From NCBI GenBank assembly GCA_945860955.1, contig CAMATH010000028.1:1-64000 (forward strand): a stretch of DNA of 64,000 nucleotides. Reading direction: 5' to 3'. The DNA is from Planctomicrobium piriforme (GTDB lineage Bacteria; Planctomycetota; Planctomycetia; Planctomycetales; Planctomycetaceae). Positions 47,334 to 56,580 of the stretch are shown piece by piece (within the stretch, counting starts at the first letter, position 1; the number at the start of each line of letters is the position of its first letter). The notes beneath the pieces are model-generated. The model saw only the letters and a program-made list of their open reading frames with translations, had not been told where the DNA came from and searched no databases. The position numbers were made by a program, and so were the translations under genes.

Positions 47334-48557
47334 ATGCAGATCACCCACGGCACAACGGCGGTTGTTGAGGCGAACTACGACTACACCTACGTGAGGCTGT
47401 TCGCCGACAACGGTCAGTACGGTACGGGCGAGTGCTTTTTCGCCCCCGGCCTGGTCGCCGCCCTGGGAGACATTCTGCCACTGCTGAATGGAAAAGACCC
47501 GCGTGAAGTCGATCGGATCTGTCGGTATTTGTGGCGAAAAGGCTCGGGGGCGGGGGCGGTCGCCGGCTATCTCTACAACGCCATCAGCGGGATCGAGGCG
47601 GCGCTCTGGGATCTGGTCGGAAAGTCGGCGGGGGTTCCCTGCTGGCAGTTTTTCGGCGGGAAGATGCGCGATGAAGTCCGCATTTACGTCGACTGCCATG
47701 CCGGCGACAACACCGAAAGCTGGGACACGATGCTCGAGGCCCGGGAACCTCAGTGGCTGAAGGACGCGTTGCAGGGGCGTCCGCAGCATGAAGAGCGCTA
47801 CGAACCCGAAATGTACTTTCGCCGGGCGCAGCAAATGGTCGCCGCCGGCTACGACGCGATGAAGTTTGATATCGACTCCATCGTCGTTTCCACCGGTGAA
47901 GAGCTGAACCGGCCCCTGACTCGCAAGGAAATGGACGCGATGGTCGCCTGCGTGGCGGCGGCTCGGGAAGGGGCGGGGGATTCGGTCGACGTCGCGGTTG
48001 ACTGCCATTGGCGATTCGCCCCCACCGAAGCGATTCGCATCGCCCGGGCTTTGGAGCCGTACAACCTGCTGTGGTTTGAAGATCCGTGCCCTCCCGAGAA
48101 CTTCCGGGATGTCGCGGAGATTCGGGCGTTGGGCATCGTGCCGATTCTCACGGGAGAAAACCTGAACCGTCGCCACGGATTCTGGGATCTGATCACCAAT
48201 CGTGGCTGCGACCTGGTCGCCCCCGACATTCAAAAGTGCGGCGGAATGCTCGAAGGGAAACGGATTGGGGAACTCGCCGAGATGCAGGGGATTCGTTTCG
48301 CACCCCACAACATCTCGTCTCCTCTCGGAACCCTGGCGAGCGCTCACGTGTGCGCCACTCTGCCGAATTTCGTCGCGCTGGAATTCCACGGCTCGGACGT
48401 GCCGTTTTGGAGCGACTTGATCACACGTCCCGATGTCCCCGGCCCGGTGATCCAACAGGGCCGCATCCCGTTGACGACCGCCCCGGGACTGGGGTGTGAA
48501 CTCAACGAGGATGTGGCGCGGAAGTACGCCAAGCCGGGGGAGACCTGGTTTGCGTAG
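47334..48557 (+). CDS. Mandelate racemase/muconate lactonizing enzyme family (sugar-acid dehydratase)
   Basis: The product has 407 residues. The N-terminal capping domain is followed by a TIM barrel with the enolase-superfamily metal ligands: Asp in DVAVDCHWRF, Glu in LLWFEDPCPPEN and Glu in ILTGENL. The lysine/base region is AAGYDAMKFDID, and APHNISSPLG with EFHGSDVPF fits the D-galactonate- or mannonate-dehydratase branch with a C-terminal histidine base. It is likely to dehydrate an aldonic or uronic acid, but the substrate cannot be given from sequence. The gene is isolated. Confidence 0.9.
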   Translation: MQITHGTTAVVEANYDYTYVRLFADNGQYGTGECFFAPGLVAALGDILPLLNGKDPREVDRICRYLWRKGSGAGAVAGYLYNAISGIEAALWDLVGKSAGVPCWQFFGGKMRDEVRIYVDCHAGDNTESWDTMLEAREPQWLKDALQGRPQHEERYEPEMYFRRAQQMVAAGYDAMKFDIDSIVVSTGEELNRPLTRKEMDAMVACVAAAREGAGDSVDVAVDCHWRFAPTEAIRIARALEPYNLLWFEDPCPPENFRDVAEIRALGIVPILTGENLNRRHGFWDLITNRGCDLVAPDIQKCGGMLEGKRIGELAEMQGIRFAPHNISSPLGTLASAHVCATLPNFVALEFHGSDVPFWSDLITRPDVPGPVIQQGRIPLTTAPGLGCELNEDVARKYAKPGETWFA

Positions 48558-48640: not shown

Positions 48641-49327
48641 CAATTCCCGTCCCGCATTATGACCAGAGATCCGATCCGTGGTCGCGGCCAGTCGAAATAT
48701 CGCCAGACATTTGGATAGTCTCTATGGCCCCACCCGATTTGCGCGAACGTCGGTCCAGCCCAGAACGTTGGCGAAACCGAGTTCTTCGGGACTGGGGCCC
48801 AAAGGTATTTTCCATCCTGCGGTTCAATCGCTCCAGGCCAGAACGCGTTGGCGAACCGGAAATAGTTCTCCTGCGAGATGGGATCGAATTTATGATTTCG
48901 ATTTCAGCGCGCGTGGGGAGGCCGATGAGATCGTAATCGATCCGGCGGATCAGCGTTGTGCGATCCGCCTGTGGCGCCGGGTCCATCTCTTCCCGCGACA
49001 GCGAATCGCGAATGAACGCGTCGATCGCCTCTGTCTCGGCGGCGCTGCCGGGAACGTCTGGACGGCGCGCCGGCTGAAGCGACCATTAGTCGCGCCCGCC
49101 ACGCACGTCAGTTGTGGATTCAAACAGATCGAGCGTCCGCTCGGCGGTCGTCAGCACCAGTTTCCCGTTGGCGTCGCGAGTTTTGTGGCATTCCAGTCAG
49201 CGCATCACCAGAATCGGCGCGACTTCGCGGTTGAAATCGGGAGCGGCCTGGACGTGCCATCAACTTTTGTCAGGCAACAGGCCAGGAACAGTGGGAGCAG
49301 TCGGCGGAGCAGCGCAGGACGCCGCAT
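48640..49327 (-). pseudogene. Decayed PSCyt1/PSCyt2 (DUF1549) planctomycete cytochrome gene
   Basis: The minus strand starts MRRPALLRRLLPLFLACC (49327 down), a signal peptide, then needs a frameshift to read QAAPDFNREVAPILVMR. TGA (49197-49199) follows where the first haem cysteine belongs, and the frame goes on as LECHKTRDANGKLVLTTAER. After another shift comes ETEAIDAFIRDSLSRE and DRTTLIRRIDYDLIGLP, the opening of the DUF1549 domain. The parts and their order match the N-terminal third of standard PSCyt1-PSCyt2-DUF1553 proteins. Everything beyond is missing or unrecognisable, so it is a truncated pseudogene with at least two frameshifts and one nonsense codon. At 48897 and below, a different frame reads an aromatic-rich stretch (FRFANAFWPGAIEPQDG) that I do not recognise. 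Confidence 0.75.
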
Positions 49328-49576: not shown

Positions 49577-50644
49577 TCATCCGTTTTTGTGAGGTCCCAG
49601 GAATCTGTCGCCGTTGAAGTGGATCATGTGGTCGGGAAAGTCGGCAATCCAGACTTCGGACTACCAGACGATGGCGGACGCGTACTTTTTGAAGTCGGCG
49701 AAGCCCAGAAACGCTGTGACGTACACACGATCCGCGGTGCAGTCGCGTAGCGTTGTTTCCAATTCGGCGTGCCGTTTCGGCGAGACCGGCCCGTGCGACG
49801 TCACCGCTTCAATGAGGAAGAGCCAGTTGCGGTTTGAATCGTAAAGAACGACATCGGGAAGCTTTTCGTGGTTCATTTCCGGAATCTGGAGACGCTCCAA
49901 GAGTTCCGTGTCAACAACGATCAACTTCTTCGCCGTATCCCCCAAGTAGATGACCGTTGCTCACGCGGCGAATCGTGGAGCGAATTGTTGAATGATCAGA
50001 CACTGGAGTACGTTGTGTGGGCCGGGTGAAAGCGTGACCGCCCTGCCGTCGGGAAGTTCAACGGGGATCTTGTGAAGCAGTCGTTCGCGATTGTACGCGG
50101 CAGTGAGGCTGCCGTGTTGTTGAGTTAATTGTGCACACTTCGAGGCGAAACCTCGTTTTCCGAAACTCGCGAGTACCTTGGCGGCCGCCTCCGTCAGTTG
50201 GTAGACCGTGTCTCCGCTGTTCGTCGGCCGGGTTGGATTGTCTGGATTGCGGTCAACCAATCTCGCTTGTTCGAGTTGGTGAATGCTCTGGCGTCGAATC
50301 GTCTCGCGACTATTGGCGGCGTAGTCCTTTTGATAATGCTCCCGCATCCACGCCATGAGATCCCAGATTCGCAAAAGCGGTCGCGTCACTGACGACCAGG
50401 AATCGGTCTCCGTCAGGCCAGCGAGCGCCCGCTTGCAAGCCGCCGCCGACAGAATTCCCACACCCGCGCCCGGATCGAGAATGCGAATCGGCGGTTTCGA
50501 GAAGTTCGCGAACTGGCCCGCCATGAACTCCGCGATCGGACCGGGCGTACCAAAGTGCCCCTGTTCTTTCCGGCGACTCGCTGTGGTCGCACTGTCGAAA
50601 CGCCGTTGCTGCTGCGTGCAAAACTCCATCAACTCTTGCGGCAT
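49577..50644 (-). pseudogene. Dead BsuBI/PstI-type restriction-modification locus (methyltransferase-nuclease fusion with two stops)
   Basis: One frame of 356 codons from ATG 50642-50644 to TGA 49577-49579 carries only two internal stops, TGA at 49961-49963 and TAG at 49661-49663. Residues 1 to about 72 are the start of a BsuBI/PstI-class adenine methyltransferase (HFGTPGPIAEFMA, SAM motif I ILDPGAGVG). From about residue 76 (GLTETDSWSS) it is the BsuBI/PstI endonuclease: ANSRETIRRQSIHQ, DNPTRPTNSG, VELPDGRAVTLSPG and, after the TGA, TVIYLGDTAKKLIVVD. The nuclease core PDVVLYD and LFLIEAVTSHGPVSPKR follows, and after the TAG the family C-terminus SEVWIADFPDHMIHFNGDRF. A deletion has therefore removed the methyltransferase body and the nuclease start. 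Confidence 0.8.
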
Positions 50645-50909: not shown

Positions 50910-52366
50910 CTAGCCCAACTTCCCCACTAAGAAAAATTGTTGTTTTGAAAATATCTCGAGGCCGGTTTTCGCCGTAAGTCGTTTCGGCTCGGTCGCCGGC
51001 CCCCCGATTTCGGGTTCGAAATTCCGAAAACGCGTTGTAGTGGAAAAACCTCGGCTTGGCGGTTGAAATCTGCCGGGTACCATCGTCGCCTGGCTGGGAC
51101 GACTCGACGAACAGGGCCGACTCGGGATTGAGCAGGCGGCCCAGATGGATCGCGGTAAGAATCCATCGGGAGACCGACAGCGATCTTTGTTTGGTGAGGA
51201 GTTCCCCATCCCTGAGCCACGGTGGGTGGAGGTCAATGCGGCCGGGGTGCGAGCCGAGAACCCGCGCCAGTTTGGAGGTCCCTGGTTGGCGCTCGAACTG
51301 GTTCGACGGCTGGGACTGGATGAGTTTCTCGAACGCGTCATGCCGCGCGGCAAGGAACGGATTCCGTGGTCTCTGACCAGTCTGATTCTGGTGATCGCGC
51401 GCCTGCTCGAACCCTCCAGCGAACTCTTCACAGCGGAGCAGTGGTATCCCAAGACGGCGCTGCCTGAATTGTTGGGTGTCCCCGCGGCGAATGTGGATGA
51501 CAATCGACTGTATCGTGCGCTCGACGAATTGCTGCCGCACAAGCGGGAACTGGAGCGGCATCTGAAGCAGCGGATGGGCGAGCTGTTCGCGCTCGACTAC
51601 GACCTGTTGCTGTACGACGTCACGAGCACGTTCTTCGAAGGGGCCGCCCATTTTTCTATGGCTCAGCGTGGCGACTCGCGCGATCAGCGCGGCGACTGCA
51701 AGCAGGTGTGCATCGGACTGGTTGTCTCGCGCTGTGGAATGCCCCTGGGTTACAAAGTGTTTCCCGGCAACACGGCCGATGTCTCGACCGTGCAGGGAAT
51801 CGTCACGGAAAAGGAGGCACGTTATGGAAAGACCGATCGCGTGTGGGTGATGGATCGCGGCATGGTCAGCGAAAAGAACCTCGCGTTTTTCCGTGAGGGA
51901 GGGCGAAAATATCTGGTCGGCACGCCGAAGGCGTTGCTCAAGAAATACGAGCGGGAACTGCACTTCATCATGTTTCGTAGTCGTGATCGTGTGAAGAAGG
52001 AAGACCGCGTGCTGGCGCACATCCTGGTCTGCTTTCTGAGTTACGTCCTGTGGAAGACGCTGGGGCAGATCTGTCAGAAGGCCGGCCGGGGAAATGAACT
52101 TCGGCGCGTGCTGGCGGAATTCTCCGAGGTCCAACTCATCGACGTGATCCTGCCGACCCGGGAGGGGCACGAGCTGACTGGACGGTGTGTCAGTGGAGCA
52201 TCCGCACACCTGACAATTCTGTTGGACCACCTGGGTCTGCGACTGCGGGCCAGGGTCTGGGAAGGGGGAGTGAAAAAATAATCCAATTTTGCATGTAGTG
52301 GAAAAAACGGGAGGGCTCCCGTTGGAAATTAAGGACTTACGTCGACAGTTGGGGAAGTCGGGCTAG
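50910..52366 (+). mobile_element. IS1634-like insertion sequence with terminal inverted repeats
   Basis: The left end CTAGCCCAACTTCCCCACT (from 50910) and the complement of the right end, CTAGCCCGACTTCCCCAACT (ending at 52366), match over about 18 bp with one substitution and one inserted base. They bracket a single transposase gene in a 1457-bp element. No convincing target duplication was found (CCGAT on the left, GCGGA on the right). A TGTAGTGGAAAAA motif recurs near both ends, at about 51036 and 52294, in the same orientation. Confidence 0.65.
51145..52281 (+). pseudogene. IS1634-family transposase with internal deletion and decayed N-terminus
   Basis: An open frame of 378 codons. LLLYDVTSTFFEG carries the first catalytic Asp and RVWVMDRGMVSEKNLAF the second, both as in IS1634-family DDE transposases. 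After LLKKYEREL the frame jumps from RSRDR to KKEDRVLAHILVCFLSYVLWKTLG, so roughly 130 residues that normally stand between these blocks are missing, including the region of the third catalytic acid (Glu). The N-terminus is also damaged: the expected TLGRLDE-like block is present as WLGRLDEQGRLG upstream of the ATG, behind a stop. I judge it inactive. Confidence 0.75.
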
Positions 52367-55877: not shown

Positions 55878-56580
55878 TCTGACGAAAGCGGTCTTGTCCA
55901 ACGACTTCCGCGTCGACCCGCCGCCGTATCCAGGCTGTGGGTTCCGCCACACGAACGGAGTGGTGTGTTTCCACTTGCGGAGTCGAATACATGCGCGATC
56001 GATGCGACGGATACTACGCGGACTCACCAACCCAAAAAACGTCGGTGCATGTGACATGGTGTCAAAAAAAAATTTGTCGCGTGAAATATGACAGCCGCCT
56101 GCGCCGTCGGGCGTGCCAAGTAGCGATCGGCGTTCCTACGACTCCGCGGTCTGGACGTCTGTCGGCAGAGTTGAGTGAAGACAGAATGAAACGACGTAAC
56201 GGAAACAAACCGGGGCGCAGCCGCCACCCCCCTCTCCCCGCGCGCGACATTGCACAGTAGGCTCAACTCCGCTGCGGGGAGAGGGGTCGGGGGTGAGGGG
56301 GACACCCATTGCCGGTAACGACTCCCACCCGGGTAACTCCTTGTTTGCCATGCACCCGCATTACCCCTGATCCGGCCTGTCGGCCACCTTCTCCCCGACA
56401 GCGGGGAGAAGGATCCGATTCAAGTCGAGCTGCGTAACTCACCTCTCCCCGCGCGCCAGCGGCGGTTAGCCACCGATCTCCTTCACCCGGAGGAGCGTCA
56501 TCGCGATATGGTGGCCCAAGAGGATTCGAATTCGAGAAATTTCTCGGTGACTCATTGGTCGAGCGATTCGTCTTGGACTG
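55878..56580. other. About 700 bp non-coding, with two GC-rich inverted repeats
   Basis: No supported gene. Contains CCCCTCTCCCCGC (56229-56241) / GCGGGGAGAGGGG (56274-56286), a perfect 13-bp inverted repeat, and CCTTCTCCCC (56387-56396) / GGGGAGAAGG (56403-56412). A third partial CCTCTCCCCGCG copy starts near 56442. Elements of this style are common intergenic repeats in GC-rich bacteria. Confidence 0.65.
56229..56286. repeat. GC-rich 13-bp inverted repeat
   Basis: The arms at 56229-56241 and 56274-56286 are exact complements. Thirty-two bases separate them, longer than a typical terminator loop, and no T-run follows. Confidence 0.7.

Follow-up and report, generated by a model that had tools for sequence, protein, structure and literature searches.

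A decayed BsuBI/PstI-type restriction-modification locus of Planctomicrobium piriforme in which the start of the methyltransferase is joined in frame to the endonuclease

Restriction-modification systems of the BsuBI/PstI type have an endonuclease (R) with the domains BsuBI_PstI_RE_N (PF17728) and BsuBI_PstI_RE (PF06616) and an Eco57I-type methylase (M; PF07669). For the R protein of G002, a genome of the same genus as our host, the only solved relative found at E<=0.001 is SdaI (PDB 2IXS; residues 6-312, E=1e-59), a working enzyme which, we presume, has an 8-bp site and a winged-helix domain. The locus described here carries the same two R domains, but its R has lost the first 30 residues and has two stops in the rest, and its M is reduced to a stub. 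Nuclease genes that likewise stand without a whole methyltransferase were collected by Ershova et al. (2012; PMC3488263), and in the available text of that work 16 of 74 type II solitary nucleases are judged truncated and 11 type II nucleases are listed beside corrupted methyltransferase genes. That restriction-modification loci decay is well established, and little is learned from one pseudogene alone.

The window (the whole analysed stretch of 64,000 nucleotides, contig CAMATH010000028.1, from the draft genome called G000 below) contains a minus-strand frame, 50644-49577, of 355 codons and a final stop. The preliminary description had read one frame joining the start of M to R and interrupted by two internal stops, and both readings hold on this strand. 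The features discussed below are as follows.

50420..50644, minus strand: methyltransferase (M) stub, located by tblastn to the M of loci L028 and L026 and by alignments
49577..50428, minus strand: endonuclease (R) remnant, 92% identical to the R of G002, with Pfam domains PF17728 and PF06616
50420..50429, minus strand: deletion junction, from codon comparison with the M of L028 and the R of L025 (the G002 locus)
49961..49963, minus strand: in-frame TGA at R residue 186, where G002 and four of another five relatives have glycine
49661..49663, minus strand: in-frame TAG at R residue 286, where all of 14 aligned R proteins have glutamate
47334-48557: enolase-superfamily gene, flanking the remnant on one side
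51145..52281, plus strand: DDE transposase gene (Pfam DDE_Tnp_1, E=5e-6), a neighbour outside the restriction-modification remnant

In a BsuBI/PstI-type methyltransferase of ~514 residues, the stub corresponds to the N-terminal stretch from residue 1 to about residue 74, and its nature was correctly recognised at the outset, its extent then being put at ~72 residues. It matches residues 3-74 of the M of L028, which carries PF07669 and NPPY (59.7% identity, E=7e-24, tblastn), and residues 1-77 of the M of L026 (54.5%, tblastn). The stub contains DPGAGVG, which we take to be SAM motif I, and alignment to the M of intact pairs places NPPY and all later M sequence in the part that is absent. Codons 73-355 of the fusion align to R residues 31-313, and the endonuclease that had been called nearly complete is therefore retained except for its first 30 residues. 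The alignment to the G002 R is gap-free internally, indicating that there is no frameshift in R. Pfam found PF17728 on the remnant (E=7e-35) and PF06616 between the two stops (E=9e-35), with a weaker piece before the TGA; the relationship to BsuBI/PstI families, proposed earlier as a check, was thus found in these domains as well as in intact M-R pairs. The similarities of both parts are far beyond chance.

G002 (contig JAPLOC010001073.1, MAG LacPavin_0419_WC53_MAG_60_6) has a complete R of 313 residues, whose start overlaps the stop of M (ATGA); its M is cut by the contig end, and what is left matches the L028 M from about residue 145 to 512. Complete pairs in which R is 69-70% identical to that of G002 are present in two Schlesneria MAGs and one Pirellulaceae MAG. 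As the M start of G002, the closest relative, lies outside its contig, the junction was compared with the M of L028 instead. Codons 73-75 of the fusion are similar to M and to R alike, so that the junction could be placed only to about 10 bases, and a short sequence common to both parents may have been present at the break. On the coordinates of L028, a Pirellulaceae pair, the deletion amounts to ~1,405 bp, the last M codon kept being 74 and the first R codon kept being 31. The M and R of L028 are in different frames, so the in-frame join is a property of the window's deletion. Compared with intact pairs, a deletion of ~1.4 kb across the M/R boundary has fused the two genes in frame at M codon ~74 and R codon 31.

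Both R domains are recognised in the remnant, but no full-length R frame is open and, instead of a complete cognate methyltransferase, only the stub stands beside R. The TGA lies upstream of a PD...EAV stretch, presumed to be catalytic, and precedes P221-D222 and E237, which are invariant in the 14 aligned R proteins and which, by analogy with PD-(D/E)XK enzymes, we take to be the catalytic residues; the TGA too would therefore disable R. The remnant has kept 43 of the 46 columns invariant in these 14 proteins, the lost ones being K3 (deleted), F131 (now leucine) and E286 (the TAG). Because it is so well preserved, a partly active fused nuclease may have existed at some stage. Neither activity is likely to be left now, since the stub would comprise only the SAM-binding start of M and the TGA ends R upstream of the residues presumed to be catalytic. 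The genome may hold an unrelated methyltransferase that shares this specificity. The deletion and the two stops, set against G002 and the further relatives, are disabling lesions of a pseudogene and support the proposal of a type II restriction-modification locus in decay; in all likelihood, a once-working overlapping BsuBI/PstI-type M-R pair was recently destroyed here.

The genome might instead hold an intact pair, the junction and the stops being assembly errors or the product of a strain mixture. The draft assembly comprises 282 contigs, each stop is a difference of a single base and could in principle be a consensus error, and many annotated frameshifts are sequencing errors according to the available text of PMC3488263. 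However, the locus lies well inside a 68.6-kb contig, and both stops are substitutions, not frameshifts. Moreover, G000 has a single PF06616 place and a single place matched by the R protein, and the L028 M, used as query over its first ~169 residues (about a third of the protein), recovered the stub at E=4e-23, the next best match having E=0.5, with no second M start at E<=0.01. We regard such an artefact as very improbable.

Comparison of the R remnant with G002 gave dS 0.29, dN 0.038 and dN/dS 0.13 (281 codons). Three other genes compared between G000 and G002 have dS 0.21 (203 codons), 0.29 (549 codons) and 0.37 (451 codons); R falls within this range and so diverged like them, which makes its death look recent. 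When amino-acid changes were assigned with five more distant R sequences as the reference, one of them partial (L014), eight were private to the window (both stops included) and six to G002, and eight were assignable to neither; no clear acceleration is apparent in the window's R. Taking dN/dS of 0.08-0.12 for a working R, ~2-11% of the window branch would have passed without constraint, which is a crude figure. In the other genomes of the genus, no PF06616 place was found in G001 (83% complete) or G003, and the fetched stretches of G003 and G001 downstream of the enolase-like gene contained nothing matching the window; the G002 contig that bears this gene ends inside it. The restriction-modification genes of G002 adjoin a PDZ-protein gene, and the counterpart of this gene in G000 (contig 105) has no restriction-modification genes as neighbours, showing that the two copies occupy different places. 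The system would thus have moved, or its surroundings would have been rearranged, in one of the two lineages. A short repeat in the window (56117-56308) also occurs in the G002 DNA beside the PDZ gene (L007, 83-329) and in contig 105 of G000 (L069, 3567-3652).

The transposase gene stands ~0.5 kb from the M start and is internally shortened relative to another copy in the host genome (G000:C73), which matches it over 1-276 and 284-378 with 543 bp between in an open frame of 609 codons. On the other side, a short minus-strand frame at 48657-48986 gave at its start a sub-threshold match to PSCyt2 (DUF1549) and may be a further planctomycete gene in decay; no Pfam domain was matched by short translations from 48907-49120.

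The value of this locus lies in comparison, because counts over 56 related loci from a single phylum give a reading of the order of loss. A search with the R protein in 170 genomes of the family matched 14, and searches for PF06616 matched 25 of 392 genomes of the phylum and 28 of 397 genomes of the class, making 53 distinct genomes with 56 distinct loci, all of which were fetched. Scoring used an M profile and an R profile, both of 19 rows (one M was entered twice, and some rows are surveyed loci), together with open-frame length, and 'complete' accordingly refers to profile and frame, not to activity. Searches anchored on R are blind to loci that lost R wholly, and 'missing' describes an M that was not found within the 5.9 to 11 kb of the stretch. 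The loci were distributed as follows.

M and R both complete: 31/56
R complete, M cut by contig end: 5/56 (L007, L131, L154, L210, L212)
R broken, M complete: 7/56 (L129, L142, L144, L146, L211, L219, L223)
R broken, M uncertain: 1/56 (L148)
Both broken, or R broken with no M in the stretch: 11/56 (the window, L141, L143, L149, L150, L152, L160, L218, L220, L221, L222)
R cut by contig end: 1/56 (L151)

Some of these calls need qualification. The M of L148 is uncertain, with an open frame of 459 codons compared with 641-650 in its relatives L139, L140, L142 and L144; the M start is poorly matched throughout the single divergent subfamily to which L142, L144 and L148 belong, together with the complete L139 and L140. 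In L145 and L147 the pair is convergent and R is divergent, and open frames of 333 and 338 codons were the basis for scoring them as complete. The broken R of L211 rests on one stop, and L150, L221 and L222 are short R pieces, the last within a longer open frame. Fourteen further loci (L026-L039, two of which are the complete pairs of G171 and G176 again) included 13 complete ones, the other being L038 from Bacteroidetes with a shortened M and a split R. As to individual loci, ~1.6 kb of intervening DNA splits R in L144 (G424) while M is still open. In L152 (G104:C328; partly read as L022), an M truncated after about profile position 228, a C-terminal scrap of R and a second, N-terminally shortened R stand in a row, and look like the remains of two related systems. 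Five of the 31 complete pairs, from five different families (L125 in G530, L126 in G231, L134 in G447, L137 in G217 and L209 in G631), have M and R in one uninterrupted frame, stop-free over 851-1130 codons with M first and the BsuBI/PstI nuclease last; these are possible natural single-chain M-R enzymes.

In none of the 56 loci of the 53 planctomycete genomes did a complete R stand beside an M that was broken or missing, and in seven a broken R stood beside a complete M, which fits the disabling of R before or together with M. If single hits fell according to gene length, the chance of all seven being in R would be (310/798)^7, or about 0.001. This bears on the order proposed in the preliminary description, which had argued that an intact nuclease without its methyltransferase should be lethal, and hence that R was inactivated before or with the loss of M. 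Lethality is usual but not absolute, since the available text of PMC3488263 gives PaeR7I and PacI as exceptions and cites that deletion of the PaeR7I methyltransferase did not kill cells. The proposed order is compatible with our data and favoured by the survey; it applies less surely to this particular locus, because the loss of M and that of the first 30 R residues were one deletion, and both stops may be older or younger than that event. Structure prediction for the G002 R from 14 aligned sequences (mean pLDDT 85.7, pTM 0.55) places helices at residues 3-13 and 23-33 of the N-terminal domain, and the lost residues correspond to helix 1 and most of helix 2, so that one event may have disabled both genes. 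Removal of these helices would have inactivated R; alternatively, the TGA or the TAG would have inactivated it before M was lost. We give the deletion itself about an even chance of having disabled R, and consider it slightly less probable that one of the stops did so beforehand.

The least likely of the three orders is that M was lost while R was still active, the cell tolerating this through protected host sites or a weak R. In addition to the published exceptions, CTGCAG occurs at 0.59 of expectation in 464 kb of the host genome (100 found, 169.2 expected), although it may not be this enzyme's site, 100 copies remain, and it is only the 14th most avoided of 64 palindromes. Neither does any surveyed locus show such a state, and the same deletion damages R; we therefore hold the loss of M before R to be unlikely. 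The avoidance of CTGCAG was rejected as a trace of the former system, this rank not being distinctive; in G003 57 copies were found against 49.8 expected (the G002 and G003 samples are small and partly N). In the same 464 kb (the window and L078-L097), CAGCTG is nearly absent (two found, 107.3 expected; in the window none, 15.7 expected) and GGCGCC is low (42 found, 176.3 expected), which suggests another past or present restriction system.

Two other loci have comparable junctions. In a Schlesneria MAG (G171, contig 83), M residues 266 to ~342 run in frame into R residues ~269 to 312; the M start is absent, no stop interrupts the fusion, and a complete pair is present elsewhere in the same genome. 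In G672, M from its start to about profile position 165 (GQPN) is joined in frame to R from ~residue 22, and R is shifted and shortened beyond residue 92. The three deletion junctions are independent and all in frame, and only the first 30 (window) and the first 21 (G672) residues of R were removed by the deletion. G260 (L143) was rejected as a further example, as it has internal deletions and frame changes and has kept the M/R boundary.

The chimeric open frame of 227 residues, comprising the M start and the R N-terminal domain up to the TGA, might have been kept as a DNA-binding protein and be repurposed rather than dead. The frame is open from ATG to TGA, all three junctions are in frame, and G672 too keeps the M start and the R N-terminal domain, with the catalytic part in another frame. 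However, three junctions would all be in frame with a chance of 1/27, and the same junction was found in none of 55 other loci. The dN/dS before the TGA (0.15) is no lower than that after it (0.11; Fisher p=1), and selection on the chimeric frame only was rejected on this ground. Among plasmid records, 61 match the R part and none of them covers 80% of the chimeric frame. Retention of the window's chimera in such a role thus seems highly unlikely, and we continue to regard the locus as a dead pair.

The three boundary-crossing deletions do illustrate how a single step might free a cell from an addictive gene pair. We offer as speculation, with little confidence, that such deletions are a recurrent exit from restriction-modification addiction, in which the loss of M survives only if R is damaged too and an in-frame M-R chimera is the scar. 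If so, deletion endpoints across decayed loci would record which nuclease damage makes methyltransferase loss safe, and some chimeras may even be kept as DNA-binding proteins.

The window locus itself is a real, ordinary decaying locus, most useful within the comparative set, which makes the old inference on the order of loss testable at the level of deletion endpoints. In the open-licence literature, as far as its available texts extend, neither this locus nor any M-R deletion fusion of the BsuBI/PstI type was found to be described; the available text of PMC3488263 shows no M-R deletion fusion, and its main text has no word beginning with 'fusion'. The nearest known arrangements are the engineered RM.Eco29kI fusion (PMC3039593) and the type IIC enzymes (PMC4081073), which, according to the available texts, have R and M in one chain as in the window, but keep both activities. 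A type IIC enzyme requires complete methyltransferase and nuclease domains in one frame, whereas here M is truncated and the frame is stopped; unlike these enzymes, the join in the window is the product of a destructive deletion.
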